This document shows, piece after piece, positions 28,976-43,151 of a stretch of 64,000 nucleotides of DNA. Origin of the DNA: Enterobacter cloacae complex sp. R_G8 (GTDB lineage: Bacteria; Pseudomonadota; Gammaproteobacteria; Enterobacterales; Enterobacteriaceae); contig NZ_CP102246.1 of NCBI RefSeq assembly GCF_024599795.1, forward strand, positions 1,302,001-1,366,000, given 5' to 3'. Made by a program: the position numbers and the translations under genes. The notes beneath the pieces were generated by a model. That model had not been told where the DNA came from. It saw only the letters and a list, made by a program, of their open reading frames with translations, and ran no database searches. Within the stretch, counting starts at the first letter, position 1; each line of letters starts with the position of its first letter.

Positions 28976-29134
28976 ATGGGTTTTTGGCGTGTTGTTTTTA
29001 CGATTATTCTCCCGCCGCTGGGCGTACTGCTTGGCAAGGGCCTGGGCTGGGCATTTATCCTGAACATCCTTCTGACCATACTGGGCTACTTCCCAGGACT
29101 TATCCACGCGTTTTGGGTTCAGACGAGAAGCTAG
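28976..29134 (+). CDS. yqaE: YqaE, Pmp3/UPF0057 family membrane protein
   Basis: 52-aa protein with two membrane helices (residues about 3-24 and 27-48), almost identical to E. coli YqaE. Family members (yeast Pmp3) affect membrane potential and salt tolerance. Start at MGFWRVV with CGGAG upstream; eight upstream codons are not part of it. Its stop codon shares bases with the stop of the convergent LysR gene. Confidence 0.95.
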   Translation: MGFWRVVFTIILPPLGVLLGKGLGWAFILNILLTILGYFPGLIHAFWVQTRS

Positions 29135-30060
29135 GTACGCCACAGTAAGTCGCTGTAGATCCCGGTCAGTACGCCCTGCGGGCCGAACTGCTGTTTGATC
29201 CAGCGCGTAACCTGGCCGGTCGCCGCATGCTGTGTGGCAAGCAGCATGCGCGAATCCTGACGTGGGTTATTAATGCGTCGCGTCACCAGCATCCCGTCTG
29301 CCACGGCCTCCCGGGCCATGTATTCCGGCAAAAAGCCGATCCCTTCCCCCAGAATCTGACACTGGCACTTAGTGTTAAAATCCGGCACCAGAATCGCCTC
29401 CTGCCCGTGCAGCAGCCAGCCCACCTTCTTATTAATGGTGTGCGCGGTGTCCTCCACCATGATGTTCGGGTACAGGCGCAGCTGGCTTTCCGCGATCGGT
29501 TCCGGGACAAACGCCAGCGGGTGTTCCGGCGCGATGGCGAATACCCAGCGGATAGCGCCAATCTCCGTGTAATCAATGCCGCCGCCGTCAAGAAGCGTAT
29601 CCGGCGCGCCAATCGCGATATTGGCCTGGTTATTGATGATTGAGTCCCAGACGCCGTTATAGACCTCCGTGGTGACGGTGATCTGGCAGGTGGGAAACTG
29701 CTTTTTCAGCACCTGCAGCAGCCGCGCGGTATGGCGTGGGGTATACAAAAGCTGATTGATGCAGATGCGTACCCGCGCCTCGATGCCCTGAGAGATGGTG
29801 TCTATCCCACGCCTGATGGCATAGAAATCATTCAGCAGATCGGTGGCCTTGCGGTAAAAGTAAAAGCCGGACTCGGTCAACTCAATGCTGCGGGTGTTAC
29901 GCACAAACAGCACCACATCCAGCCCGGTCTCCATTCGTTTGATGGTGTAACTGATGGCCGACGTGGTCACACCCAGCTCGGCGGCGGCTTTGCTGAAACT
30001 GCCAAAACGCGCCGCCGTGGTGAAGGCCAGCAGATTCTCTTCAGTAAAGATGGAATTCAT
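29131..30060 (-). CDS. yahB: LysR-family regulator, YahB/AllS-like
   Basis: 309-aa LTTR. The winged HTH covers residues 5-65 (LLAFTTAARFGSFSKAAAELGVTTSAISYTIKRME). Effector-domain text such as NQLLYTPRHTARLLQVL, VYNGVWDSIINNQANIAIG and GIGFLPEYMA resembles AllS, activator of allantoin-derived oxamate/glyoxylate genes. ATG 30060 has CGGAG; twenty upstream codons are discarded. It is divergent from yahD and its operon, the classic arrangement of an LTTR with its target, and corresponds to E. coli yahB in that position. Confidence 0.88.
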   Translation of the reverse strand: MNSIFTEENLLAFTTAARFGSFSKAAAELGVTTSAISYTIKRMETGLDVVLFVRNTRSIELTESGFYFYRKATDLLNDFYAIRRGIDTISQGIEARVRICINQLLYTPRHTARLLQVLKKQFPTCQITVTTEVYNGVWDSIINNQANIAIGAPDTLLDGGGIDYTEIGAIRWVFAIAPEHPLAFVPEPIAESQLRLYPNIMVEDTAHTINKKVGWLLHGQEAILVPDFNTKCQCQILGEGIGFLPEYMAREAVADGMLVTRRINNPRQDSRMLLATQHAATGQVTRWIKQQFGPQGVLTGIYSDLLWRT

Positions 30061-30378
30061 ATTACGGCTCCGGGTTGCCATCAGTTTTGAACATATTTTA
30101 ACAGCGGCGCAACAACGCATTTGACGGCGGTCACAGTTCTGATGTTTAGCTACAGGCCTTGTTATGCAAGGCTTCTTTGGTCATAAGCAAAATGCCGTGA
30201 ATGGCCTGAAATAACGCTTACCCATAAGAAAAAGGTTGCACAGACGCACGTTTTAGCTGAACCGTTGAATTTAACTCAACAATGAATTGACTGTCGATGA
30301 ATGATTTTTAAGCGGATTCTTTTCTGAAAGGGCTGTTGCTATTCTCAGGTCATCAGCAACACACCATCGGGAGTCTGT
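30061..30378. other. yahB-yahD divergent control region
   Basis: 318 bp without a gene. Contains the LysR-type dyad at 30264-30280 and the candidate promoter just after it. Confidence 0.65.
30264..30292 (+). promoter_or_regulatory. Candidate LysR operator and -35 for yahD
   Basis: GTTGAATTTAACTCAAC (30264-30280) has GTTGA / TCAAC arms and an internal T-N11-A, the LTTR pattern. TTGACT (30287-30292) follows 7 bases later, with no good -10 at the right distance, as expected for an activator-dependent promoter. Confidence 0.4.
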
Positions 30379-30984
30379 ATGTCTGCGAATGAACTCGTGA
30401 CGGAATTTTTACTGGCGGCAGAGCAGGGTAATGTCGACGCGCTAAAAGCCTGCCTTGAGAAAGGTGTCGATATTAATGCCACCAATCGTCAGAAAAGAAC
30501 CGCCATTGTTATTGCCAGCCTGAAAAAACATTACCCCTGTGTCGCGTTATTAATTGACGCCGGTGCGGATATCGATAAACAGGACCAGACCTGTTTTAAC
30601 CCCTTCCTGATCAGCTGCCTGACCAATGATTTAACCCTGCTGCGGCTTGTTCTGCCCGCCAACCCGGATCTTGAGCGTCTGACGCGCTTCGGCGGGGTGG
30701 GAATTACGCCCGCCAGTGAGAAAGGGCATGTGGAGATTGTCCGCGAGCTGCTGGAAAAGACCGATATCAACGTTAATCACACCAACTTTGTCGGCTGGAC
30801 GCCGCTGCTGGAAGCTATCGTCCTGAATGACGGCGGCCCGAAACAGCAGGCGATCGTGAAGCTGCTGCTGGACCACGGTGCGAATCCGCACATGACCGAT
30901 AAATACGGTAAAACCCCGCTCGAACTGGCGCGGGAAAAAGGCTACCACGCGATAGCTGACCTGCTGCTGGCGGCGGGTGCGTAA
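30379..30984 (+). CDS. yahD: Ankyrin-repeat protein YahD
   Basis: 201-aa cytoplasmic protein, the length of E. coli YahD. It is made almost wholly of five ankyrin repeats; clear units are AAEQGNVDALKACLEKGVDINA, RTAIVIASLKKHYPCVALLIDAGADIDK, GVGITPASEKGHVEIVRELLEK, GWTPLLEAI...AIVKLLLDHGANPH and GKTPLELAREKGYHAIADLLLAAG. No signal peptide. Ankyrin repeats bind other proteins; no partner is known. Ribosome site GGGAG. It is 106 bases upstream of yahF, but a hairpin lies between, so it may be a separate leader gene of the locus. Confidence 0.9.
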   Translation: MSANELVTEFLLAAEQGNVDALKACLEKGVDINATNRQKRTAIVIASLKKHYPCVALLIDAGADIDKQDQTCFNPFLISCLTNDLTLLRLVLPANPDLERLTRFGGVGITPASEKGHVEIVRELLEKTDINVNHTNFVGWTPLLEAIVLNDGGPKQQAIVKLLLDHGANPHMTDKYGKTPLELAREKGYHAIADLLLAAGA

Positions 30985-30991
30985 TTTATTC

Positions 30992-31014
30992 GGCCAGCCT
31001 GTTTCCGGCTGGCC
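30992..31014 (+). terminator. Hairpin between yahD and yahF
   Basis: GGCCAGCC / GGCTGGCC perfect 8-bp stem with a TGTTTCC loop, then CTCATTTC. It may reduce readthrough from yahD into the yahF operon. Confidence 0.6.
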
Positions 31015-31090
31015 CTCATTTCAAACGTATTTTTCCGACGTGCATTTTGCACGACGGCGGCCCCCTTTTATCCGCATTCAGGAGAAAATA

Positions 31091-32632
31091 ATGCCCACAA
31101 AAATCGTGATTAAAAAGAACACGTATTTTGACTCCGTCTCATTAATGTCCGTTTCCACCAAAGCCAATAAATTGCCAGGCGTTGAGCAGGCGTTTGTGGC
31201 GATGGCGACGGAGATGAATAAAGGTGTATTAAAAAATCTCGGGTTGTTAACGCCAGAATTAGAGGATGCGAAAAACGGCGATCTGATGATCGTCATTAAA
31301 GGCGACGCGGCTAATGATGAAACCCTGGCGGCGATTGAAGCGTTATTCACCCGAAAAGAGCGCGAGGGCAACCATGAAGCACGCTACGCGACTCTGGCCA
31401 GCGCGAAAGCCCACCGTCCCGACAGCAACCTGGCGGTGATTTCAGTAAACGGCATGTTTGCGGCACGCGAAGCGCGCAAGGCGCTGGAAAACGATCTCAA
31501 CGTGATGCTCTTTTCCGATAACGTATCCCTCGACGATGAGCTGGCGCTCAAGCAGCTGGCGCACCAGAAAGGGCTGCTGATGATGGGGCCAGACTGCGGC
31601 ACTGCCATTATCAACGGCGCAGGACTGTGCTTTGCTAACGCGGTGCGCCGCGGCTCGATTGGCATCGTCGGCGCTTCCGGCACCGGCAGCCAGGAGCTGA
31701 GCGTGCGCATTCATGAATTTGGTGGCGGCGTGTCGCAGCTGATAGGCACCGGCGGGCGCGATCTCAGTGAAAAGATCGGCGGTCTGATGATGCTCGACGC
31801 CATCGACATGCTGGAGGCCGACGATGCCACCCAGGTCATCGTGCTGATCTCCAAACCGCCTGCACCCGCGGTGGCAGAAAAAGTGCTGGCGCGCGCCCGG
31901 GCCTGCCGCAAACCGGTCATCGCCTGTTTCCTTGGCCGCAACGAACCGCCCGCCGATGAAGACGGCCTGCAGTTTGCCCGCGGCACCAAAGAGGCGGCCC
32001 TGAAGGCCGTGCTGCTCACCGGTATCAACAAAGCGTCCCTTGACCTGCATCCGCTCAACTGGCCCCTGATTGAAGCGGTGCGCGCCCGTCTCACTCCGCA
32101 GCAGAAATACATTCGCGGTCTGTTCTGTGGCGGCACTCTGTGTGATGAAGCCATGTTCGCCGCGCTTGAGAAGTACGACGACGTCTACAGCAACATTCAG
32201 CCCGATCCGGCGAAACGCCTGCGCGACATTAACGTCAGTCAGGCTCACACCTTCCTCGATTTTGGGGATGACGATTTCACCAACGGCAAGCCGCACCCGA
32301 TGATCGACCCAACCAACCGCATCAGCCGCCTGCTGCAGGAGGCGCGCGATCCGGAAGTGGGCGTGATTGTTATGGACTTCGTGCTGGGCTTTGGTGCGCA
32401 TGAGGATCCGGTCGGCGTGATGCTCGATGCCATTAAAGAGGCGCAGGCGATTGCGAAAGCCGACAACCGTCCGCTGGAAATTCTCGGCTACGTGCTGGGT
32501 ACCGACCAGGATCCCCAGTCACTGGCGCAGCAGTGTCAGCTTCTGACCGATGCCGGCGTGATCTGGGCCAGCAGCAGTACCAACACCGGATTACTGGCAC
32601 GCGAATTTGTCTGCAAAGGGGAGAACGCCTGA
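31091..32632 (+). CDS. yahF: FdrA-family protein YahF (transcarbamylase subunit)
   Basis: 513-aa protein related to the alpha subunit of succinyl-CoA synthetase/NDP-forming acyl-CoA ligases, in the FdrA/YahF family. Rossmann-type stretches are VISVNGMFAAREARKAL, MMGPDCGTAIINGAGLCFAN and GSIGIVGASGTGSQELSVRIH. The FdrA paralogue is one of three proteins of oxamate transcarbamylase (AllF). ATG 31091 with AGGAG is chosen over an upstream frame start at 30977 because the extra 38 codons cover the hairpin and have no homologue. Its stop shares one base with the yahG start. Confidence 0.9.
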   Translation: MPTKIVIKKNTYFDSVSLMSVSTKANKLPGVEQAFVAMATEMNKGVLKNLGLLTPELEDAKNGDLMIVIKGDAANDETLAAIEALFTRKEREGNHEARYATLASAKAHRPDSNLAVISVNGMFAAREARKALENDLNVMLFSDNVSLDDELALKQLAHQKGLLMMGPDCGTAIINGAGLCFANAVRRGSIGIVGASGTGSQELSVRIHEFGGGVSQLIGTGGRDLSEKIGGLMMLDAIDMLEADDATQVIVLISKPPAPAVAEKVLARARACRKPVIACFLGRNEPPADEDGLQFARGTKEAALKAVLLTGINKASLDLHPLNWPLIEAVRARLTPQQKYIRGLFCGGTLCDEAMFAALEKYDDVYSNIQPDPAKRLRDINVSQAHTFLDFGDDDFTNGKPHPMIDPTNRISRLLQEARDPEVGVIVMDFVLGFGAHEDPVGVMLDAIKEAQAIAKADNRPLEILGYVLGTDQDPQSLAQQCQLLTDAGVIWASSSTNTGLLAREFVCKGENA

Positions 32633-34047
32633 TGACCACCTTATTCAACCAACCGCTGAACGTCATTAACGTCGGTATTGCGCTGTTCAGTGATGATCTT
32701 AAAAAACAGCACGTCCCCGTTACCCAACTCGACTGGGCACCGCCGGGGCAGGGCAATATGCAGGTCGTCGACGCGCTCGACCAGCTGGCCGCGGAGCCGC
32801 TGGCAGCGAAGATCGCCGCCGCCAACAAGATTGCGCTGGAGCGCATCATTCAGTCCCACCCGGTGCTGGTGGGGTACGACCAGGCGATTAACGTTGTGCC
32901 GGGGATGACCCGTACCACCATTCTGCATGCCGGTCCTCCGGTGAGCTGGGAAAATATGTGTGGCGCGATGAAAGGCGCTGTCACCGGCGCGCTGGTGTTT
33001 GAAGGGCTGGCGGACGATCTGGAGGCGGCGGCAAAGCTGGCGGCTTCAGGCGACATCACCTTCTCGCCGTGCCACGAGCACGACTGCGTGGGCTCGATGG
33101 CAGGCGTCACCTCCGCGTCGATGTTTATGCATATCGTTGAGAACAAAACCTACGGCAACCGTGCCTATACCAACCTCAGCGAGCAGATGGCGAAGATCCT
33201 GCGCATGGGCGCCAACGATCAGAGTGTTATCGACCGTCTGAACTGGATGCGCGACGTGCTCGGCCCAATGCTGCGCGACGCTATGAAGATTATCGGCGAA
33301 ATCGATCTGCGCCTGATGCTGGCCCAGGCGCTGCACATGGGTGACGAATGCCACAACCGCAACAACGCGGGCACCACGCTGCTGATCCAGGCACTGACGC
33401 CGGGGCTGATTCAGGCGGGTTACCCGGTGGCGCAGCAGCGCGAGGTGTTTGAGTTTGTCGCCAGCAGCGACTACTTCTCCGGCCCGACGTGGATGGCGAT
33501 GTGTAAAGCCGCGCTGGACGCCGCCCACGGCATTGAGTACAGCACGGTGGTCACCACCATGGCGCGTAATGGCTATGAGTTTGGTCTGCGCGTCTCTGGC
33601 CTGCCAGGACAGTGGTTCACCGGCCCGGCGCAGCAGGTGATTGGCCCGATGTTCGCGGGTTACAAGCCGGAAGACTCCGGGCTGGATATCGGCGACAGCG
33701 CCATCACGGAAACCTACGGTATCGGCGGCTTTGCGATGGCGACGGCCCCGGCGATTGTCGCGCTGGTGGGCGGCACGGTGGAAGAGGCCATCGACTTCTC
33801 CCGCCAGATGCGCGAAATCACCCTCGGTGAAAACCCGAACGTCACCATTCCGCTGCTGTCGTTTATGGGGATTCCAACCGCCATCGACATCACCAAAGTC
33901 GCGGGCAGCGGCATTCTGCCGGTGATTAACACCGCCATTGCCCACAAAGACGCGGGCATCGGCATGATTGGGGCGGGCATCGTTCACCCGCCGTTTAGCT
34001 GTTTTGAAAAGGCGCTGTTGACCTTCCGCGATCGCTACTTTTTATAA
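32632..34047 (+). CDS. yahG: DUF1116 protein YahG (transcarbamylase subunit)
   Basis: 471-aa DUF1116 protein of the YlbE/YahG type; YlbE (AllG) is a subunit of oxamate transcarbamylase in E. coli. Noted conserved stretches are PVSWENMCGAMKGAVTGALVFEG, FSPCHEHDCVGSMAGVTSASMFMH and HMGDECHNRNNAGTTLLIQAL; the Cys/His-rich CHEHDC could bind metal or substrate. ATG overlaps the yahF stop by one base (TGATG) with GGGGAG upstream. Substrate is not shown by sequence. Confidence 0.9.
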   Translation: MTTLFNQPLNVINVGIALFSDDLKKQHVPVTQLDWAPPGQGNMQVVDALDQLAAEPLAAKIAAANKIALERIIQSHPVLVGYDQAINVVPGMTRTTILHAGPPVSWENMCGAMKGAVTGALVFEGLADDLEAAAKLAASGDITFSPCHEHDCVGSMAGVTSASMFMHIVENKTYGNRAYTNLSEQMAKILRMGANDQSVIDRLNWMRDVLGPMLRDAMKIIGEIDLRLMLAQALHMGDECHNRNNAGTTLLIQALTPGLIQAGYPVAQQREVFEFVASSDYFSGPTWMAMCKAALDAAHGIEYSTVVTTMARNGYEFGLRVSGLPGQWFTGPAQQVIGPMFAGYKPEDSGLDIGDSAITETYGIGGFAMATAPAIVALVGGTVEEAIDFSRQMREITLGENPNVTIPLLSFMGIPTAIDITKVAGSGILPVINTAIAHKDAGIGMIGAGIVHPPFSCFEKALLTFRDRYFL

Positions 34048-34058
34048 GGCAAGCATCC

Positions 34059-35612
34059 ATGAAAAACATGAAACTGGAGTGGAAAAGAGGTGACTGGGCG
34101 GCATATTTCGGGTTGATGACCAACAACCTGACCAATTTGCTGACCATGATGGGGTTGCTCATTTTTGTCGTCGGCATCCCGAAGGAGATTGTTTATGGAC
34201 GCATCGCGCCGGCCTTCGGGCTGGCGGTGCTGGTGGCGAGCGTCTGCTACGCGTGGTTTGGCCTGCAAATGGCGCGTGCCACCGGACGAACGGACGTGAC
34301 TGCGCTACCGTCTGGCCCGAGCGCGCCGTCGATTTTTACCGTCACCTTTCTGGTCTTAATGCCGGTCTACCAGCAAACCGGTGACGCGGATTTTGCCATC
34401 CAGATTGGTCTGGTGTGGTGCTTTGTCGAGGCGATGATTCTGGCGGGCGGCTCCTTCCTCGGGGAGACCATCCGCAAGATGATCCCGCGAACCGTGCTGC
34501 TCTCGTGTCTGTCGGGCCTGGGCCTGCTGCTGCTGGCGATGAACCCGATGCTGCAGGCGTTTGAAGCGCCCACCGTGTCGTTCATCGTGCTGCTGCTGAT
34601 CTTCATTAACTGGTTTGGCAAAAAACCGATCTTCGCCAGGATCCCGACCGGTCTGCTGTTGTTGATTGCTGGCACGGTGTTAGCGTGGATCTCCGGCCTG
34701 CAAAGCCCGGAGGCAATTAAAGCCTCGATGTCCTCTTTCGGCTTTAACCCGCCCGAAGTCCATGTAGAAGGTTTCCTGCAGGGCTTGCCGCACGCGCTGC
34801 CGTATCTGGCGTCTGCCGTGCCGCTGGGGCTGGCGAACTACATCTTTGACCTGGAAAACATTGAAAGCGCCCACGCGGCGGGGGACGAGTACCCGACCCG
34901 CAAGGTAATGCTGGCGAACGGCCTGGCCTCCATGCTCGGCTGCCTGATGGGCAATCCGTTCCCGGTGACGGTCTACGTGGGTCATGCAGGCTGGAAAGCG
35001 ATGGGCGCCAGCATCGGCTACACGCTGGCCTCCGGCGTGACCATGTTTATCGTGCCGCTGTTCGGACTGGGGGCGTTTATGCTGGCCATCATTCCGATGA
35101 CCGCCATCGTGCCGATCCTGGTGTTTATCGGCGTTGTCACCGCCAACCAGGTGGTGAGGGAAACGCCCAAAGTGGAGGTGCCCGTGATTTTCATCTGCCT
35201 GTTCCCGTGGATCGCCAACTGGGCGCTGACCATGATGAACAGCGTGATGGGCGCGGCGGGCACTAACGCGACGAAAATCGGCACTGACGTGCTGCACAGT
35301 AAAGGGATCTACTACGAAGGGTTGGTGCATCTGGGCAGCGGCGCACCGCTCGCCAGCATGCTGTGGGGGTGTATCGCCATCTTCGCCATCATCAACAAAC
35401 CGCTGCGCGGGGCCGTTGCCGCCGCCGGTGGCGCGCTGCTGGCGCTGTTTGGCGTGATCCACGCCCCGGTGGTGGGCTTTGCCGAAGGCAGTTCGCTGAT
35501 GTTCGTGACCGCGTATCTGATGATGGGCGGCATGTTTGTGGTGAAGCATGTTCTCGACAGCCGGGAAGTGGCGAGCGCTGAGCCGGGTACTGTTGCGAAG
35601 GAAAACGTATGA
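34059..35612 (+). CDS. NCS2-like nucleobase/ureide permease
   Basis: 517-aa membrane protein with 12 or more hydrophobic segments. It resembles the xanthine/uracil permease (NCS2/AzgA) fold: TALPSGPSAPSIFTV early in the protein, and GNPFPVTVYVGHAGWKAMGAS in the position of the family's second half-helix. It lies 11 bases after yahG and its stop overlaps yahI (ATGA), so it is a true operon member. I do not recall a counterpart at this site in the E. coli K-12 yah cluster. It probably imports the compound that the operon degrades, plausibly a purine- or pyrimidine-derived ureide. Confidence 0.85.
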   Translation: MKNMKLEWKRGDWAAYFGLMTNNLTNLLTMMGLLIFVVGIPKEIVYGRIAPAFGLAVLVASVCYAWFGLQMARATGRTDVTALPSGPSAPSIFTVTFLVLMPVYQQTGDADFAIQIGLVWCFVEAMILAGGSFLGETIRKMIPRTVLLSCLSGLGLLLLAMNPMLQAFEAPTVSFIVLLLIFINWFGKKPIFARIPTGLLLLIAGTVLAWISGLQSPEAIKASMSSFGFNPPEVHVEGFLQGLPHALPYLASAVPLGLANYIFDLENIESAHAAGDEYPTRKVMLANGLASMLGCLMGNPFPVTVYVGHAGWKAMGASIGYTLASGVTMFIVPLFGLGAFMLAIIPMTAIVPILVFIGVVTANQVVRETPKVEVPVIFICLFPWIANWALTMMNSVMGAAGTNATKIGTDVLHSKGIYYEGLVHLGSGAPLASMLWGCIAIFAIINKPLRGAVAAAGGALLALFGVIHAPVVGFAEGSSLMFVTAYLMMGGMFVVKHVLDSREVASAEPGTVAKENV

Positions 35613-36565
35613 AAGAGCTTATGGTCGTCGCCATTGGCGGCAATAGCATTATCAAAGACAACGCCAGCCAGTCGGTAGAGCATCAGGCGCAGGCGGTTAA
35701 AGCGGTGGCAGAGTCGGTGCTGGAGATGCTGGCATCCGACTATGACATTGTGCTCACGCACGGCAACGGCCCCCAGGTGGGGCTGGATCTGCGCCGCGCC
35801 GAAATTGCCCACGAGCGGGAGGGACTGCCGCTCACGCCGCTGGCCAACTGCGTGGCGGATACGCAGGGTGGTATCGGCTACCTGATCCAGCAGGCGCTTA
35901 ACAACCGCCTGGCCGCGCGCGGTGAGCAAAAAGCGGTCACGGTCGTCACGCAGGTAGAGGTGGATAAAAACGATCCCGGCTTTACGCACCCGACGAAACC
36001 GATCGGCGCGTTCTTCAGCGAGGCGCAGCGGGATGAACTACAAATCGCCCATCCGGACTGGCATTTCGTAGAAGACTCCGGTCGGGGCTATCGCCGCGTG
36101 GTGGCCTCACCCCAGCCGCTGCGGATTGTCGAATCGGAGGCCATCAAAACCCTGACACAAAAAGGCTTTGTGGTGATCGGCGCGGGTGGCGGCGGGATCC
36201 CCGTTGTGCGCTCGGCGCAGGGCGATTACCAGAGCGTTGATGCGGTGATTGATAAAGATCTCTCCACCGCGCTGCTGGCGCGCGAGATCCGTGCCGACGT
36301 GCTGGTGATCACCACCGGGGTCGAAAAAGTGTGCATCCACTTTGGCAAGCCGAACCAGCAGGCGCTGGACACGGTGAGCGTGGCGCAGATGACCCGTTAC
36401 AAAGACGAGGGCCATTTCCCGGCGGGCAGCATGCTGCCCAAAATCGTCGCCTCGCTGGCGTTTTTACACCACGGCGGCAAGCGCGTGATCATCACCTCGC
36501 CAGACTGCCTGCCCGCCGCGCTGCGCGGGGAAACCGGTACCCATATTGTTAATGAAGGAAGATAA
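35609..36565 (+). CDS. yahI: Carbamate kinase YahI (ArcC family)
   Basis: 318-aa amino-acid kinase fold enzyme: carbamoyl phosphate + ADP to ATP, CO2 and NH3. Seen are the phosphate loop VAIGGNSII, LTHGNGPQVG, the insertion region with FVEDSGRGYRRVVASPQP, and GAGGGGIPVV / VIDKDLSTALLA. It corresponds to E. coli YahI. Its presence right after YahF/YahG supports their making carbamoyl phosphate, from which this enzyme recovers ATP. Start overlaps the permease stop by 4 bases. Confidence 0.93.
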   Translation: MKELMVVAIGGNSIIKDNASQSVEHQAQAVKAVAESVLEMLASDYDIVLTHGNGPQVGLDLRRAEIAHEREGLPLTPLANCVADTQGGIGYLIQQALNNRLAARGEQKAVTVVTQVEVDKNDPGFTHPTKPIGAFFSEAQRDELQIAHPDWHFVEDSGRGYRRVVASPQPLRIVESEAIKTLTQKGFVVIGAGGGGIPVVRSAQGDYQSVDAVIDKDLSTALLAREIRADVLVITTGVEKVCIHFGKPNQQALDTVSVAQMTRYKDEGHFPAGSMLPKIVASLAFLHHGGKRVIITSPDCLPAALRGETGTHIVNEGR

Positions 36566-36566
36566 G

Positions 36567-37946
36567 ATGAGTGAAAATAAAAGCCGCCGTGAATTCATCA
36601 GCCAGAGCGGCAAAATGGTCACCGCCTGTGCGCTGTTTGGCGCGACCGGTTCCGTCGCGTATGCTGCCGATTCCGCAAAGCCAACCTGCGAGACGGGCAA
36701 ACCGATGAACATCACCGCTAAACACTACTACCTGGACAACGTGCTGCTGGAGGCCGGATTTAACGTCGACGGCGGCGTGGCGACGAGCACCCGCACCGAG
36801 CTGAAAACGCTGGAGATCAAAGACGGGAAAATTGTCGCCCTGCGTGATAACAAAAATCACGCGGACGCCACCCTGCCGCACTATGACGCGGGCGGCAAGC
36901 TGATGCTCCCGGCGATGCGCGATATGCACATTCACCTGGATAAAACCTTCTACGGCGGTCCGTGGCGTTCGCTCAACCGCCCGGCGGGTACCACCATTCA
37001 GGATATGATCCGCCTTGAGCAGAAGCTGCTCCCCGAACTCCAGCCTTATACCCAGGAGCGCGCCGAAAAGCTGATCGATCTGATCCAGTCGAAAGGCTCC
37101 ACCATCGCCCGCAGCCACTGCAATATTGAGCCGGTCTCGGGCCTGAAGAATCTGGAGAACCTGCAGGCGGTGCTGGCGCGCCGCAAGCCCGGATTTGACT
37201 GCGAGATCGTGGCGTTTCCACAGCACGGCCTGCTGCTGTCGAATTCCGAACAGCTGATGCGCGAGGCGATGCAGGCCGGGGCGCACTACGTGGGCGGGCT
37301 GGATCCCACCAACGTTGACGGGGCGATGGAGAAATCTCTCGACACCATGTTCCAGATTGCGCTGGATTACGACAAAGGGGTGGATATTCACCTGCACGAA
37401 ACCAGCCCGGCGGGTGTGGCGGCGGTGAACTACATGGTCGAAACCGTGGAGAAAACCCCGCAACTGAAGGGCAAACTGACCATCAGCCACGCCTTTGCGC
37501 TGGCCACGCTCAACGAGCAACAGGTGGATGAGATTGCCACCCGCATGGCGGCGCAGCAGGTGACTATCGCCTCCACCGTACCCATCGGCACTCTGCATAT
37601 GCCGCTGAAGCAACTGCGTGAGAAGGGCGTGTTCGTGATGACGGGGACCGACAGCGTGATCGACCACTGGTCACCGTACGGTTTAGGGGACATGCTGGAA
37701 AAAGCGAATCTCTACGCCCAGCTCTATATCCGCCCTAATGAGCAGACGCTGTCCCGCGCTTTAGGTATCGCGACCGGTGACGTGCTGCCGCTGAACGACA
37801 AAGGTGAATGCGTCTGGCCGAAAGTGCAGGACGACGCCAGCTTTGTGCTGGTGGACGCCTCCTGTTCCGCCGAGGCGGTGGCGCGCATATCTCCACGCAC
37901 CGCGACCTTCCATAAGGGGAACCTTGTGTGGGGCTCTGTGGGTTGA
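36567..37946 (+). CDS. yahJ: Tat-exported amidohydrolase YahJ
   Basis: 459-aa amidohydrolase-superfamily enzyme of the cytosine deaminase-like group. Metal ligands are seen in MHIHLDKTF (His121, His123), HLHET (His275/277), SHAF (His308) and GTDSVIDHW (Asp362). The N-terminus carries a twin-arginine signal, S6-RREFIS, a hydrophobic stretch ending about AYA33, so the folded metalloprotein should act in the periplasm. One base after yahI, with AAGGAAG before the ATG. Orthologue of E. coli YahJ. It may hydrolyse a ring or amide outside the cytoplasm to yield the ureide the permease imports (inference). Confidence 0.9.
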   Translation: MSENKSRREFISQSGKMVTACALFGATGSVAYAADSAKPTCETGKPMNITAKHYYLDNVLLEAGFNVDGGVATSTRTELKTLEIKDGKIVALRDNKNHADATLPHYDAGGKLMLPAMRDMHIHLDKTFYGGPWRSLNRPAGTTIQDMIRLEQKLLPELQPYTQERAEKLIDLIQSKGSTIARSHCNIEPVSGLKNLENLQAVLARRKPGFDCEIVAFPQHGLLLSNSEQLMREAMQAGAHYVGGLDPTNVDGAMEKSLDTMFQIALDYDKGVDIHLHETSPAGVAAVNYMVETVEKTPQLKGKLTISHAFALATLNEQQVDEIATRMAAQQVTIASTVPIGTLHMPLKQLREKGVFVMTGTDSVIDHWSPYGLGDMLEKANLYAQLYIRPNEQTLSRALGIATGDVLPLNDKGECVWPKVQDDASFVLVDASCSAEAVARISPRTATFHKGNLVWGSVG

Positions 37947-38040: not shown

Positions 38041-38961
38041 TTACAGGTGATACCCCGACAATCGCAACTCCCGGTCAATCCACTCAACGAACTGCTGGAT
38101 CTTCCACGCGCGTTCATTCATATGCGGCATCACCAGATGGTGCGCATTAATGGCGATCCCCATCTCATCCGGCAGTACCTGCACCAGTGAGCCATCTTTC
38201 AGGTGGTCTGTCGCCATCATTTTGCTCTCAAGAATAAATCCCAGCCCCATGCGCGCCGCTTCAAAGCTCATATAGGAGCGGTCAAAGCTGAGGCTGAAGT
38301 TGAGCCAGGGCCTGTCGATATTGTGCCAGGCGAACCATTTTTCCCAGTTCACCAGCGTGCTGGTGGACGAGATGAGTGACTGTTGCAGCAGATCGGTGGG
38401 GGTGCTGATGGGGTGTTTTTGTGCATACTCCGGCGAGGCCAGCACCACCAGCGTGTCGTTTTTAATGGTCATCACCCGGTAAGCATCCCAGTCCGGGATA
38501 CCGTGGCGGATATCAATATCAATATTATCTCTGGCGAATTGCAGATTCTCATAGGAGCAGGTGAGATTGATGGTGATATCGGGATATTCGGCGCGAAACT
38601 TACCCAGGCGGCGTAACAGCCATGACAACCCGAAGGTGGGCGAGGAGTGCACCCGAAGCACGGCGTTATCTTTCTCTTTGACGATCTGATCGGTGGCGCG
38701 TCCGATGGCGCTCATCGCCGCCGAGACCTCCCGCAGATATTTTTCTCCCGTCGGGGTGAGCTGAACCCCTTTGCCACTGCGGATGAATAATTTCTTGCCC
38801 ATCCACGACTCCAGCGACGCGATCTGATGGCTGACCGCGGAGGGGGTGACATTGAGCTGTTCGGCCGCCTGATGGATGCTCAATGCGTTAGCGACGGCGA
38901 TGAATGCCTGCAAATTTCTGAGCGAGGGCAGTGATAACGTCTGGCGATCCTGCGCGGACAT
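38041..38961 (-). CDS. LysR-family regulator (GcvA-like)
   Basis: 306-aa LTTR. HTH at residues 14-72 (LRNLQAFIAVANALSIHQAAEQLNVTPSAVSHQIASLE); the effector domain with VHSSPTFGLSWLLRRLGKF and MGLGFILESKM places it with the GcvA/AmpR-like group that act on metabolic operons. It is divergent from the MFS-SDR-transketolase operon (216-bp gap), its probable target. Ribosome site CAGGAG. Inducer unknown. Confidence 0.88.
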   Translation of the reverse strand: MSAQDRQTLSLPSLRNLQAFIAVANALSIHQAAEQLNVTPSAVSHQIASLESWMGKKLFIRSGKGVQLTPTGEKYLREVSAAMSAIGRATDQIVKEKDNAVLRVHSSPTFGLSWLLRRLGKFRAEYPDITINLTCSYENLQFARDNIDIDIRHGIPDWDAYRVMTIKNDTLVVLASPEYAQKHPISTPTDLLQQSLISSTSTLVNWEKWFAWHNIDRPWLNFSLSFDRSYMSFEAARMGLGFILESKMMATDHLKDGSLVQVLPDEMGIAINAHHLVMPHMNERAWKIQQFVEWIDRELRLSGYHL

Positions 38962-39177
38962 AGCCTACTCCTGTCATGTTTATTGATAAAAAACATAACA
39001 TTGAGACGGCATGCGGGCAATTTTATCCCGATGTTATTTTTTTTGAGCTGTATCGCGAATCAAATTTATCTCAGCAATAAATGAGGTTTATTGAATGGTG
39101 TTTCATTTATGAGCCGATATATTGACCTTGAACGTAAAAATAAAACGACTCACGTTGTTCGAATAATGAGGTAAGTT

Positions 39178-40509
39178 ATGTCTCGTATAGAACAAGCTGT
39201 CCCCTACATAAACACGAAAAAAACCAATTACCGTTTCGTTGTGCTGGCATTAATTTTTATTGTGTATGCCATTAACTATGCTGACCGGACAAATATTGGT
39301 GCAGTACTGCCCTTTATCATTGATGAGTTTCATATCAATAATTTCGAAGCCGGTGCCATCGCCAGTATGTTCTTTTTGGGATACGCATTGAGCCAAATTC
39401 CGGCGGGCTTTTTTATCGCCAAAAAGGGTATTCGCGGCATGGTGGCGCTGTCGATATTCGGTTTCTCGGCGTTTACCTGGCTGATGGGTACGGCGACCTC
39501 TGTTCTGGGTCTGAAGTGTATTCGGCTGGGCCTGGGGCTAACGGAGGGGCCGTGCCCCGTCGGACTGGCCTCCACCATCAATAACTGGTTTCCCCCCAGG
39601 GAGAAGGCGACGGCCACGGGGGTCTACATCGCGGCCACCATGTTCGCGCCGATCCTCGTGCCGCCGCTGGCGGTGTGGATCGCCATGACCTGGGGCTGGC
39701 GTTGGGTCTTCTTCTCCTTCGCGATCCCCGGTCTGGTCATTGCCGTTCTGTGGTATCTGCTGGTGCGTACCAGACCATCGGAGAGCACATTTGTCTCTAA
39801 AGCCGAACTGGAGACCATTACTGCGGGCCAGGAGACGCCGGACGCCAGGCGGGAAAACATCGTGATTTCACCGGGCTTTGCACGTCTTGACCGCCTGATC
39901 CGCGTGCGGGACTTAGCCCCGGTGAGCACAGTGAAAGGGCTGTTTACCTCGAAGAATATCCTCGGCGACTGTCTGGCCTATTTCATGATGGTCAGCGTGC
40001 TGTATGGCCTGTTGACGTGGATCCCGCTCTATCTGGTGAAAGAGAAAGGCTTTACGTTTATGAGCATGGGGCTGGTCGCCAGTATGCCGTGCATCGGCGG
40101 GTTTATCGGGGCGATCTTTGGCGGTTACGTATCCGACAAACTGCTCGGCCGCCGGCGTAAACCGACCATGATGTTTACCGCCATCAGCACCGTGTTAATG
40201 ATGGTCATCATGCTGAATATCCCGCAAAGCACCGTTGCGGTTTGTGTGGGGCTGTTTTTTGTCGGCCTCTGTCTGAATATCGGCTGGCCTGCTTTTACGG
40301 CTTACGGTATGGCGGTTGCAGACAGTAAAACTTATCCCATTGCCGCGTCAATTATCAATAGCGGCGGGAATCTCGGCGGATTTGTTTCCCCGATGCTGGC
40401 GGGTTATCTGCTGGATAAAACAGGAAGTTTTAACTCTGTCTTTATTTATTTCGGTATTTGTGCAGCGATTGGCTTATTTATGATTATGTTGCTGGATGAG
40501 CCGAAATAA
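39178..40509 (+). CDS. MFS transporter, anion:cation symporter (ACS) family
   Basis: 443-aa, 12-helix transporter of the ACS family used for glucarate, galactonate, tartrate and similar organic acids. The INYADRTNIGAVLPFI opening after helix 1 and RLGLGLTEGPCPVG...NNWFPPREKATATGVY in the N-half are family signatures (compare GudP/DgoT). First gene of a four-gene operon; GAGGTAAG upstream of the ATG. Points to a sugar acid or hydroxy acid as the operon's substrate. Confidence 0.9.
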   Translation: MSRIEQAVPYINTKKTNYRFVVLALIFIVYAINYADRTNIGAVLPFIIDEFHINNFEAGAIASMFFLGYALSQIPAGFFIAKKGIRGMVALSIFGFSAFTWLMGTATSVLGLKCIRLGLGLTEGPCPVGLASTINNWFPPREKATATGVYIAATMFAPILVPPLAVWIAMTWGWRWVFFSFAIPGLVIAVLWYLLVRTRPSESTFVSKAELETITAGQETPDARRENIVISPGFARLDRLIRVRDLAPVSTVKGLFTSKNILGDCLAYFMMVSVLYGLLTWIPLYLVKEKGFTFMSMGLVASMPCIGGFIGAIFGGYVSDKLLGRRRKPTMMFTAISTVLMMVIMLNIPQSTVAVCVGLFFVGLCLNIGWPAFTAYGMAVADSKTYPIAASIINSGGNLGGFVSPMLAGYLLDKTGSFNSVFIYFGICAAIGLFMIMLLDEPK

Positions 40510-40545
40510 AAAAATAAATCCCTTTTATCAGAATGGAGTAAATAT

Positions 40546-41295
40546 ATGCTACTGAAAGATAAAGTCGCCGTTATTACCGGCGCGGCTTCTGTACGCGGTT
40601 TGGGTTTTGCCACGGCTAAATTATTTGCCGGGCAGGGTGCGAAGGTGGTGATTATCGATTTAGATGCCGAAGCCAGTCGGGCTGCCGCGGCGAATCTGGG
40701 TGAAGAGCATCTGGGCCTGGCGGCGAACGTCAGCAATGAATTACAGGTCAACGCCGCCATTGAGCAGGTGCTGGGAAAATACGGGCGTATCGATATTTTG
40801 GTGAATAACGCCGGTATTACTCAGCCGATCAAGCTGATGGAGATTAAACGCGAGAATTACGACGCGGTGCTGGACGTCAGCCTTCGCGGCACGCTGCTGA
40901 TGTCCCAGGCGGTGATCCCCACCATGCGTGCGCAGAAGTCGGGCAGCATTGTCTGCATTTCATCGGTATCAGCCCAGCGCGGCGGCGGTATTTTCGGTGG
41001 CCCCCATTACAGCGCGGCTAAAGCCGGTGTGCTGGGCCTGGCGAAAGCGATGGCCCGCGAGCTGGGACCGGATAACGTACGCGTCAACTGCATCACTCCC
41101 GGCCTTATCCAGACGGACATCACCGCAGGCAAGCTCAGCGATGAGATGAAAACCACCATCCTGGCGGGCATTCCGCTTAACCGCCTCGGCGACGCGCAGG
41201 ATATAGCCCGCGCCGCGCTGTTCCTTGGCAGCGACCTTTCGTCTTACTCCACCGGTATCACGCTCGACGTGAACGGCGGCATGCTGATCCATTAA
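40546..41295 (+). CDS. SDR-family oxidoreductase
   Basis: 249-aa short-chain dehydrogenase. Cofactor loop TGAASVRGLG (residues 11-20, with the two-residue insertion of the 'AASxRG' subgroup), NNAG at 87-90, catalytic Ser about 140, Tyr155 and Lys159 in YSAAK, then PGLIQTDIT. Asp after the second strand (IIDLD) suggests NAD over NADP. Probably oxidises a hydroxyl of the imported acid to a ketone before transketolase acts. It follows the transporter by 36 bases. Confidence 0.9.
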   Translation: MLLKDKVAVITGAASVRGLGFATAKLFAGQGAKVVIIDLDAEASRAAAANLGEEHLGLAANVSNELQVNAAIEQVLGKYGRIDILVNNAGITQPIKLMEIKRENYDAVLDVSLRGTLLMSQAVIPTMRAQKSGSIVCISSVSAQRGGGIFGGPHYSAAKAGVLGLAKAMARELGPDNVRVNCITPGLIQTDITAGKLSDEMKTTILAGIPLNRLGDAQDIARAALFLGSDLSSYSTGITLDVNGGMLIH

Positions 41296-41307
41296 GGAGA
41301 CCCGACG

Positions 41308-42153
41308 ATGACGGATACTACAGTTCAACAGGTTACCGCGGCGGCATGGCGTATTCGCCGCTATGCACTGCGCATGGGCGAAGTGCAGGGGCAGGGGTAC
41401 ATCGGGCAGGCGCTGGGCTATGCCGACGTACTGGCCACCGCGTTTACCCACGGTATGAACCTCAAGCCGGACGAGCCGGAGTGGGAAGGCCGTGACCGTT
41501 TTCTGCTTTCTCACGGTCATTACGCCATTGCCTGTTATGCCGCCCTGATTGAAGCGGGGATCATTCCTGAAGAGGAACTGGAGACCTACGGCTCGGACGA
41601 CAGTCGCCTGCCAATGTCCGGTATGGCAACTTACACGCCGGGCATGGAGATCTCCGGTGGGTCGCTGGGGCAGGGGTTAAGTATTGGGGTCGGCATGGCG
41701 CTGGGGCTGAAGCACAAGCAGAGCCCGGCATGGGTCGTTAACTCCATGTCGGACGGTGAGCTTGACGAAGGATCAACCTGGGAAGCGGCTATGTCTGCAG
41801 CGCACCATGGCCTGTCGAACCTGATCGTGCTGGTGGACATTAACCGCCAGCAGGCAGACGGCAACTCGCACAAAATTCTTGGCTTTGAGCCGCTGGAGGA
41901 TAAATGGACCTCGTTCGGCTGGTACGTGCAGCGCGTAAATGGCAACGATGTCCCTGCGCTGGTTGCGGCGTTTGATAACGCCAGACGCTATCCCGAAAAC
42001 CAGCCACGCGTCATTTTGTGCGACACGCTGATGGGCAAAGGTGTGCCTTTCCTCGAACAACGTGACAAGAACCATTTTATTCGCGTGGATGCTGACGAGT
42101 GGCAAAAGGCACTCGCCGTGCTGGATGCCAACAAACCTGAAGGAGTGCTGTAA
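41308..42153 (+). CDS. Transketolase, N-terminal subunit
   Basis: 281-aa pyrimidine-diphosphate-binding half of a split transketolase. TPP-binding motif SDGELDEGSTWEAAMSAAHHGLSNL...DINRQQADG (about residues 150-190) and LSHGHYAIACYAAL are seen. About half the size of TktA; the other half is the next gene, whose ATG overlaps this stop by one base, giving equal synthesis. AAGGAGA ribosome site 12 bases after the SDR gene. Confidence 0.92.
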   Translation: MTDTTVQQVTAAAWRIRRYALRMGEVQGQGYIGQALGYADVLATAFTHGMNLKPDEPEWEGRDRFLLSHGHYAIACYAALIEAGIIPEEELETYGSDDSRLPMSGMATYTPGMEISGGSLGQGLSIGVGMALGLKHKQSPAWVVNSMSDGELDEGSTWEAAMSAAHHGLSNLIVLVDINRQQADGNSHKILGFEPLEDKWTSFGWYVQRVNGNDVPALVAAFDNARRYPENQPRVILCDTLMGKGVPFLEQRDKNHFIRVDADEWQKALAVLDANKPEGVL

Positions 42154-43151
42154 TGAGCCAGATAACGGAGAAAAAACCGCGTTTAACCACGTCGGCCATG
42201 ATTGCCTCTATTGCGGAAGACGGCCAGGAGACGCGCTCTGCACCGTTCGGCCATGCGCTGGTGAAGCTGGCGGAACAGCGCCCGGAAGTTGTCGGTATGA
42301 CGGCGGATTTGTCGAAATATACCGATCTGCATATCTTTGCCCAGGCGTATCCGGAACGTTTCTTCCAGATGGGGATGGCGGAGCAACTCTTAATGGGCGC
42401 GGCCGGGGGAATGGCAAAAGAGGGGTTTATTCCCTTTGCCACGACGTATGCGGTCTTTGCCACACGTCGTGCCTACGATTTTATTCATCAGGTTATCGCC
42501 GAAGAGCATCTCAACGTGAAGATATGCGCTGCGCTGCCGGGATTAACCACGGGCTACGGTCCGAGCCACCAGGCGACGGAAGATATTGCGATTATGCGCG
42601 GTATTCCGGGGATGACCATCATCGATCCCTGCGATGCGATAGACACCGAACAGGCAGTACCGGCGATCGCGGCGCACAATGGGCCGGTGTATATGCGACT
42701 GCTGCGTGGCAAGGTGCCGGTGGTGCTGGACCAGTACAATTACCGGTTTACGCTGGGCAAAGCCGCGCTGCTGGAAGAGGGGAGCGACGTCCTGATCATC
42801 GCTTCAGGGCTGATGACCATGCGCGCGCTGGAGGCCGCAAAGCAACTGCGTAAGGATAACGTCAGCGTGGCGGTACTGCATTCGCCCACCATTAAACCGC
42901 TGGATGAGGAGACTATCCTGGCGCAGACCGCGAAACCTGGGCGGCTGGTGGTGGTCGCCGAAAACCACAGCACCGTAGGGGGGCTTTGTGAGGCCGTGGC
43001 GTCGCTGCTGATGCGTCATCGCGTGCATGTCGACTTTGATACCGTTGCGCTACCAGATGCTTTCCTGGATGCAGGTGCGCTCCCGACGCTTCACGAACGC
43101 TACGGGATCTCAACGGCAGCCATGGTGGAGAAGATCCGGCGCAGGCTTTGA
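42153..43151 (+). CDS. Transketolase, C-terminal subunit
   Basis: 332-aa pyrimidine-binding plus C-terminal domains of the split transketolase. Has the catalytic-Glu region FQMGMAEQLLMGAAGGMAKEGFIPFATTYAVF, SHQATEDIAIMRGIPGMTI and a lid domain with VVAENHSTVGGLCEAVAS. Together with its partner it should transfer a two-carbon ketol to an aldose phosphate acceptor or act on a short ketose-like acid; the donor is not evident because no kinase or aldolase is in the operon. Confidence 0.92.
   Translation: MSQITEKKPRLTTSAMIASIAEDGQETRSAPFGHALVKLAEQRPEVVGMTADLSKYTDLHIFAQAYPERFFQMGMAEQLLMGAAGGMAKEGFIPFATTYAVFATRRAYDFIHQVIAEEHLNVKICAALPGLTTGYGPSHQATEDIAIMRGIPGMTIIDPCDAIDTEQAVPAIAAHNGPVYMRLLRGKVPVVLDQYNYRFTLGKAALLEEGSDVLIIASGLMTMRALEAAKQLRKDNVSVAVLHSPTIKPLDEETILAQTAKPGRLVVVAENHSTVGGLCEAVASLLMRHRVHVDFDTVALPDAFLDAGALPTLHERYGISTAAMVEKIRRRL

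Follow-up and report, generated by a model that had tools for sequence, protein, structure and literature searches.

A yah-type transcarbamylase operon without yahE is a clade-wide variant in Enterobacter and related genera

In Escherichia coli the proteins AllF, AllG and AllH convert oxalurate and phosphate to oxamate and carbamoyl phosphate, and parts of the 2024 report on them show that the three form a carbamoyl transferase with no relation to the classical family (PMC11326118). Here we describe a yah-type operon of Enterobacter cloacae complex sp. R_G8, found in a stretch of 64,000 nucleotides (contig NZ_CP102246.1, positions 1,302,001 to 1,366,000) that is termed the window as a whole. 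The operon encodes homologues of AllF and AllG, termed YahF and YahG (together YahFG), and has no gene for YahE, the AllH homologue. The arrangement is genuine: it is a variant of the FdrA-AllG transcarbamylase system that spans a whole clade.

As described in parts of PMC11326118, the E. coli AllF-AllG-AllH and AllK system resembles the window in that FdrA-type and DUF1116-type subunits are encoded beside a catabolic carbamate kinase gene, with an AllS-like regulator nearby. The window operon differs in being without AllH and in adding an ankyrin protein, an NCS2-type permease and an amidohydrolase of the kind exported by the twin-arginine translocation (Tat) system; its YahG is 41–50% identical to AllG of other cluster types. 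The E. coli chromosomal yahBCDEFGIJ genes share orthologous order with the window, with proteins 70–91% identical to the window's, but the E. coli yah locus that we read has yahE and yahC and no permease, whereas Enterobacter has the permease and no yahE. Second yah copies of E. coli, one on a chromosome (L003 3107-11540) and one on a ColV plasmid (L004 1804-11540; L and G numbers are our handles for loci and genomes), share the order LysR-yahD-yahF-yahG-permease-carbamate kinase with the window; they differ in carrying yahE, in missing yahJ and in having insertion sequences downstream. An oxalurate-type cluster of Enterococcus faecalis (L147 811-13971) likewise combines YahD-like and YahJ-like proteins with FdrA, AllG and carbamate kinase, but has FdrA and AllG fused (1003 amino acids) and includes DUF2877, allD, an MFS transporter and a PucR regulator.

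The operon and its regulator are laid out in the window as follows.

29131..30120, minus strand: yahB-like LysR regulator (AllS/PunR-like), divergent from the operon
30379..30984, plus strand: yahD, ankyrin-repeat protein (Ank_2, 1.8e-32), first gene of the conserved order
30985..31090, no strand: yahD-yahF spacer, the position held by yahE in other genera
31091..32632, plus strand: yahF, AllF/FdrA-like subunit (ATG 31091; NF004760, 498 bits, cut-off 433)
32632..34047, plus strand: yahG, AllG/DUF1116 subunit (ATG 32632; PF06545, 7.2e-90; PDB 3clq, 1.8e-195)
34059..35612, plus strand: permease with an NCS2/SLC23/SLC26-type fold, no Pfam family
35609..36565, plus strand: yahI, carbamate kinase (NF009007, 608 bits, cut-off 266)
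36567..37946, plus strand: yahJ, metal-dependent amidohydrolase with a Tat signal (ATG 36567; NF005312, 692 bits, cut-off 447)

The conserved unit is the LysR gene followed by yahD-yahF-yahG-permease-yahI-yahJ, in which yahD is included because it sits in the conserved gene order; the E. coli-type yah order (LysR, yahD, yahF, yahG, yahI, yahJ) is thereby present in the window. Junctions are tight: yahF and yahG overlap by 1 base, 11 bases separate yahG from the permease gene, the latter overlaps yahI by 4 bases, and a 1-base gap precedes yahJ. YahF matches FdrA of PDB entry 3dmy (2.7e-86) and, at 2.1e-17, the succinyl-CoA synthetase alpha subunit. In a Pfam scan at E up to 0.001 the only domains found in YahF and YahG were Ligase_CoA, CoA_binding, Succ_CoA_lig and AllG, with none of the aspartate/ornithine carbamoyltransferase domains. 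By YahG the nearest named relative is Enterobacter hormaechei (97% identical). The LysR protein carries LysR domains, shares 91% identity with the aligned part of the E. coli yahB product, and has AllS as its best NCBIfam match (261 bits, short of the cut-off of 372), followed by PunR (235 bits). An original prediction, made from the letters of the window, had described five coupled genes for FdrA, AllG, a permease, carbamate kinase and an amidohydrolase beside an AllS-like regulator, and had mentioned a yahE in E. coli; coordinates, domain scans, the AllS match and the E. coli locus agree with it on each count.

The same prediction noted that yahD and yahF are too close for yahE, and this holds: 106 bp lie between the end of yahD (30984) and the start of yahF (31091). 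By gene order and spacer comparison no yahE is present there in the window, nor did the spacer hold a yahE remnant, its match to seven yahE regions being no better than that of shuffled DNA. The third subunit, which the prediction had thought might lie elsewhere, was searched for across the genome. PF11392 found no AllH/YahE (DUF2877) gene in the 4.95-Mb genome while detecting the E. coli control. A full-length AllH profile of 51 sequences had no match in 17 of 22 genomes, the window genome among them, and recovered six known genes in the other five, which were those expected to carry AllH; this control is generous in that several of the six genes also serve as rows of the profile. A recognisable AllH homologue elsewhere in the window genome is excluded.

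Most of the genus shows the same absence. Of 60 genomes sampled from the window's genus, 56 had no match to PF11392, four had AllH and 58 had AllG. In three of these four (G172, G200 and G204) AllH lies about 1–2 kb from each genome's second AllG, and in the other (G181) it lies about 2 kb from a single AllG of another cluster type. Among named genomes of the YahE-less clade 12 of 13 had no AllH by PF11392, and the exception carries it in a second cluster. AllG occurred in 34 of 149 genomes sampled from the family and AllH in 30 of those 34; the other four were two of the window's genus, G109 and G148. The phylum sample of 398 genomes gave 16 with an AllG match (one below the cut-off), seven of them with AllH. 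The remaining nine were three of the window's genus, G455, four with distant DUF1116 genes and no YahF adjoining (G394, G222, G496 and G527) and G443, whose AllG match is the sub-threshold one.

For gene-order comparison, genome contigs were scanned with the permease; of 113 relatives confirmed the best 80 were kept, and these, the window and two E. coli loci make up a set of 83. Apart from the window and L002, a chromosomal locus of E. coli, the loci were all reached via the permease, and because of this the set is uninformative on permease frequency. yahE is missing between yahD and yahF in 27 loci, namely the window and 26 others labelled Enterobacter, Lelliottia, Leclercia, Huaxiibacter, Silvania or Enterobacteriaceae bacterium RIT714. 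It is present there in 53 loci, all outside the YahE-less genera; these include Citrobacter, Trabulsiella, Buttiauxella, Serratia, Providencia, Proteus, Atlantibacter, Pantoea, Herminiimonas and Bosea, and in those inspected yahE begins right after yahD and overlaps or adjoins yahF. Of the three loci left, L063 is cut off upstream (and is the only one of the 83 in which yahD was not found), Shewanella morhuae has AllH past the carbamate kinase gene on the opposite strand, and Aeromonas cavernicola has its sole AllH on another contig, unlinked to the operon. An iterated AllH profile sorts the loci cleanly, with no weak matches. The missing yahE is a clade-wide trait, more than chance. Two side observations concern the same proteins: YahD has a long C-terminal extension (more than 400 amino acids in total versus 201) in Bosea and Shewanella (L126 8484-9887; L127 8561-9829), and AllH/DUF2877 genes without AllF or AllG in the fetched stretch occur on the A. 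cavernicola contig (L138 8069-8941) and on a Klebsiella plasmid that also carries a permease relative and a gene annotated as a ring-opening amidohydrolase (L152 677-1648).

In the wider family, loss of AllH has recurred. A tree was built from 53 AllG/YahG proteins chosen among the available loci, 13 of them labelled as having no AllH; on it this label needs five changes, and five in every one of 200 bootstrap trees; the tree carries a long-branch warning, chiefly for L146, L147 and L128. The YahE-less yah clade (nine rows) forms one group (support 100/99). The other AllH-less rows are clusters in G205 and G169 (both of the window's genus), in G148 and in G455. Those of G205 and G169 are of a type other than yah, and their close relative G181 has AllH; an isochorismatase-type gene precedes FdrA in G205 and G148 and precedes AllH in G181. 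Three of the label changes fall around G205, G169 and G181 and can be read either as losses or as one loss plus one regain.

In the YahE-less clade YahF and YahG are under strong purifying selection. Median pairwise ratios of non-synonymous to synonymous substitution rates (dN/dS) for six genes were 0.048–0.078 there and 0.017–0.052 in YahE-containing groups; the YahE-less medians, which rest on 351 non-independent pairs, were 0.051 for YahF, 0.048 for YahG, 0.062 for the permease, 0.058 for YahI and 0.056 for YahJ. No rewiring of the two subunits is visible: 308 of 513 positions of YahF, and 355 of 504 counted positions of YahG (the count beginning upstream of the likely ATG), are identical in at least 95% of both the YahE-less and the YahE-containing sets. 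Clade-fixed differences from YahE-containing orthologues number three in YahF, one in YahG, one in the permease and two in YahI. The change at YahF 452 (Lys to Gln) is the only one in YahF or YahG at an otherwise fixed site, that of YahG being at a variable site. YahE itself, where present, is by a wide margin the fastest-evolving of the operon's proteins, with a median pairwise identity of 38.9% versus 80.3% for YahF and 86.4% for YahG across 28 loci chosen as non-redundant by YahE; YahJ is next lowest (70.0%, 23 of the 28 loci).

We propose, at about even odds, that the operon is a catabolic route leading from a urea-containing compound through carbamoyl phosphate to ATP, with YahFG active without YahE in this lineage. 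Tat-exported YahJ would hydrolyse a small N-heterocycle or amino derivative in the periplasm and the permease would import the product; YahF and YahG would then cleave an N-acylurea (R-CO-NH-CO-NH2, such as oxalurate) with phosphate to an amide and carbamoyl phosphate, from which YahI would form ATP, CO2 and ammonia. The steps would probably run in this order, and the scheme of periplasmic hydrolysis, import and phosphorolysis already put forward in the original prediction appears to fit the parts. yahE would have been lost in the ancestor shared by Enterobacter, Lelliottia, Leclercia, Silvania and Huaxiibacter, leaving a conserved non-coding spacer, and YahFG would have retained the same chemistry. 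Because yahE would have gone while that chemistry was kept, YahE/AllH is best seen as accessory or replaceable in this lineage, not as an indispensable catalytic subunit. That YahFG are active without any AllH homologue is, in our estimate, somewhat more probable than the route as a whole. In its favour are the absence of AllH from genomes that keep AllG, the purifying selection, the small number of clade-fixed differences, the poor conservation of YahE, the recurrent losses and the loose binding of AllH that a tagging experiment in E. coli suggests (parts of PMC11326118).

The transport and hydrolysis steps depend on two proteins. The permease has no match to Pfam or NCBIfam models, and the Pfam xanthine/uracil permease (NCS2) model matches none of 29 members of its family at E up to 0.01. 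A structure model of medium confidence (predicted local distance difference test, pLDDT, 76.5; built from 21 sequences) gave 102 Foldseek matches at E of 0.001 or less, the best being SVCT1 (1e-7), with UraA (3e-6) among the others, at TM-scores of about 0.5 and with an equally good fit to SLC26. The NCS2 (SLC23) fold is marked by a 7+7 inverted repeat with short strands in two helices, and the medium-confidence model shows this fold, with short strands at 85-87 and 303-305. Distant relatives bear the names xanthine or NCS2 permease. Such relatives also sit between xdhABC and guaD in Sulfitobacter and Limimaricola, or adjoin DUF2877-fdrA-DUF1116-arcC in Peptoclostridium. The predicted NCS2-like character of the permease is thus upheld in part, by a medium-confidence fold and the names of relatives, and finds no echo in Pfam. 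Nor is the permease peculiar to this lineage. It stands in the same place in YahE-containing operons of many genera, an occurrence that says nothing of frequency in permease-fetched loci; it has a match in 138 of 5426 E. coli genomes, and the two such loci read carry yahE. Among yah-type loci fetched via AllG, it is present in L030 and L031 and absent from L032 and L033. YahE-containing operons, Bosea apart, are 81–94% identical to the window's in the permease, 63–90% in YahI and 69–87% in YahJ.

YahJ is predicted to be exported via Tat, as first proposed: its N-terminus carries the twin-arginine motif SRREFI, and RRx[FLIVMY] occurs within the first 30 residues of 77 of 77 YahJ proteins. It matches PDB entry 6nbo (2.6e-44), its nearest PDB entries are N-isopropylammelide hydrolase and cytosine deaminases, and its motifs HIH, HLH, SHA and GTD align with those of AtzC; we take the HxH, HxH, SHA and D motifs to supply the metal-site His, His, His, His and Asp of cytosine deaminase/AtzC-type amidohydrolases. 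In parts of PMC7549933 E. coli YahJ is listed among predicted Tat substrates, and a yahJ deletion in a strain of extraintestinal pathogenic E. coli gives a competitive index of 0.70 in mice.

For the substrate of YahFG, an N-acylurea is about as probable as not, and oxalurate itself doubtful. A phosphohistidine acyl-CoA mechanism for YahF is unlikely because the GHAG-bearing segment of succinyl-CoA synthetase alpha (2yv2), which we take to be its active-site phosphohistidine segment, falls in a gap of the YahF alignment. In E. faecalis homologues of YahD (33%) and YahJ (36%) are found by the FdrA-AllG fusion, DUF2877, carbamate kinase and allD. The G455 cluster includes an AH_C-isochorismatase fusion, and in parts of PMC12625717 the allFGH genes of nitrifiers adjoin triuret and biuret genes. 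N-acylureas may link these three contexts. The position of permease relatives between xdhABC and guaD in Sulfitobacter and Limimaricola also speaks for such a substrate, as does the action of AllFGH on oxalurate (parts of PMC11326118). In L128 (4697-5764) an allophanate-hydrolase C-terminal domain fused to an isochorismatase-type hydrolase lies between a permease relative and FdrA. Parabanic acid is the ring form of oxalurate; judging by titles, it was reportedly described in 1965 as an inducer of oxamate transcarbamylase, and an older paper is said to concern the oxalurate pathway of S. faecalis. Parabanic acid is among the nitrogen sources on the Biolog plates of PMC5491218. Acylurea-type substrates occur in animals, since uric acid and singlet oxygen yield parabanic acid and, on hydrolysis, oxaluric acid (parts of PMC5703782).

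Several points weigh against the proposed route. In parts of PMC11326118, E. coli without allH makes 1.2 mM oxamate where 17.7 mM is made with it, and a triple mutant given back allFG only reaches 2.9 +/- 3.3 mM, 7% of wild-type, so that the paralogous pair AllFG barely works alone. The host there was K-12 MG1655; this strain carries the yah paralogues, which might account for the residual 7% and 16% seen on complementation with allFG and allGH. Twelve residues are invariant in 54 AllH sequences (N26, G169, G171, L172, T173, P174, D177, D178, G258, S261, G262 and G268), the pattern being similar in 51 sequences with a TPxxDD-type motif invariant; such residues look like a ligand site, which would be odd for a mere accessory. 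For each of the six genes median dN/dS peaks in the YahE-less clade, the group with the lowest median dS as well, and YahG differs most (0.048 versus 0.017–0.030 in three YahE-containing groups), so selection may be somewhat relaxed there, on YahG most. In the window's genus AllH is also gone from a second cluster type, in keeping with a lineage-specific substitute. The operon has no ring-opening enzyme besides YahJ, a genome search for AtzD/barbiturase was negative when run without a working control, and the proposed substrate rests on context.

The alternative that survives best, although we hold it unlikely, is non-orthologous replacement: the clade's YahFG would still depend on a third partner, the role of YahE having passed to an unrelated protein whose gene lies elsewhere. 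The need of E. coli AllFG for AllH (parts of PMC11326118), the near constancy of YahF and YahG after yahE loss and the loss of AllH from two cluster types within the window's genus are all consistent with it, as is A. cavernicola, where the third partner may act in trans because the only AllH is unlinked. However, the intergenic gaps of the loci read leave little space for an added gene, and the losses in other lineages (G148 and G455) would each require a substitute of their own. Rather improbably, YahE may never have belonged to the transferase and may have served a separate reaction of the pathway that the clade abandoned, acting for instance on the amide product or on some other substrate. 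Its much faster evolution than that of YahFG, the invariant TPxxDD-type motif, the occurrence of AllH without AllF or AllG in fetched stretches L138 and L152 and the excess of AllH over AllG in G517 would agree with this. So would the failure of a tag on E. coli AllH alone to hold AllF and AllG on a column, which suggests that AllH binds them loosely (parts of PMC11326118). The same parts of that report tell against a separate reaction, with oxamate cut from 17.7 to 1.2 mM by allH deletion and an active preparation that held all three proteins, AllF and AllH being tagged.

Two further readings have very little chance of being right. Loss of transferase activity along with YahE, leaving YahFG to another purpose or to decay, would accord with the E. 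coli requirement for AllH (parts of PMC11326118) and the slightly higher dN/dS of the clade, but not with strong purifying selection on six genes, an intact carbamate kinase and the same order in five genera. The suggestion in the original prediction that YahFG alone act on a ureide different from that of YahE-containing operons is right in that the pair persists without YahE, and subunit loss speaks for it, but a substrate change tied to yahE loss is unlikely because YahF and YahG carry only three and one clade-fixed differences (one of these, in YahF, falls on a site that is fixed otherwise), and YahE-containing operons use the same permease, YahI and YahJ.

The spacer that would have replaced yahE has features of its own. 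A covarying hairpin at about 30992-31014 has eight pairs, and in four of these both partners differ in one or more of 24 sequences (counted without a shuffled control), and a second palindrome was spotted by eye at about 31036-31056. The block GGCCCCCTTTT at 31059-31069 of the window recurs exactly among the 27 YahE-less loci, 25 of which have it when the window is counted; every other locus scanned is without it. These elements are a possible terminator or operator between yahD and yahF, and yahE loss may have separated control of yahF from that of yahD. Downstream of yahJ, the window at 38041-43151 carries LysR, MFS transporter, SDR dehydrogenase and two-part transketolase genes, a set that follows yahJ in just three named loci within the fetched extents (L059, L069 and L072).

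The order of yahG, yahI and yahJ recurs, without the permease, beside atzC on catabolic plasmids. AtzC (N-isopropylammelide isopropylaminohydrolase) belongs to the amidohydrolase family of YahJ and stands in the order DUF1116-carbamate kinase-hydrolase, but is 30% identical to YahJ and has no Tat signal, and on the plasmids the DUF1116 gene is truncated with no permease between. The stretches are as follows.

L143 5001-7488: yahG-yahI-yahJ order without permease
L144 4986-7782: yahG-yahI-yahJ order without permease
L148 5001-7782: yahG-yahI-yahJ order without permease

On these three plasmids (one in Pseudomonas sp. EGD-AKN5, pTC1 of Paenarthrobacter aurescens and p3 of Agrobacterium leguminum) the gene before atzC encodes a carbamate kinase (48% to YahI) and is itself preceded by a truncated DUF1116 stretch (60–69% to YahG). 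The EGD-AKN5 plasmid and pTC1 are 99% identical in AtzC and 100% in carbamate kinase, and because the segment in common hardly differs from plasmid to plasmid the arrangement probably arose in one event. It suggests that atzC derived from a yah-type operon; in the open-access literature we found no paper on atzC together with carbamate kinase.

Tentatively, and with slightly less than even confidence, AllF and AllG may be the catalytic core and, in the Enterobacter clade, a stable two-subunit enzyme, with AllH/YahE a dispensable add-on discarded several times; the yah-type operon would be an acylurea pathway and the source of atzC. The decayed yahG-like copy beside atzC hints at the origin of this well-known gene of herbicide (atrazine) breakdown. 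The acylurea proposal would supply a candidate substrate class for the yah operon of E. coli and Enterobacter. A clade-wide natural deletion in which the other two subunits hardly changed offers a clean comparison, Enterobacter YahFG versus Citrobacter YahEFG, for defining the catalytic core of this transferase.

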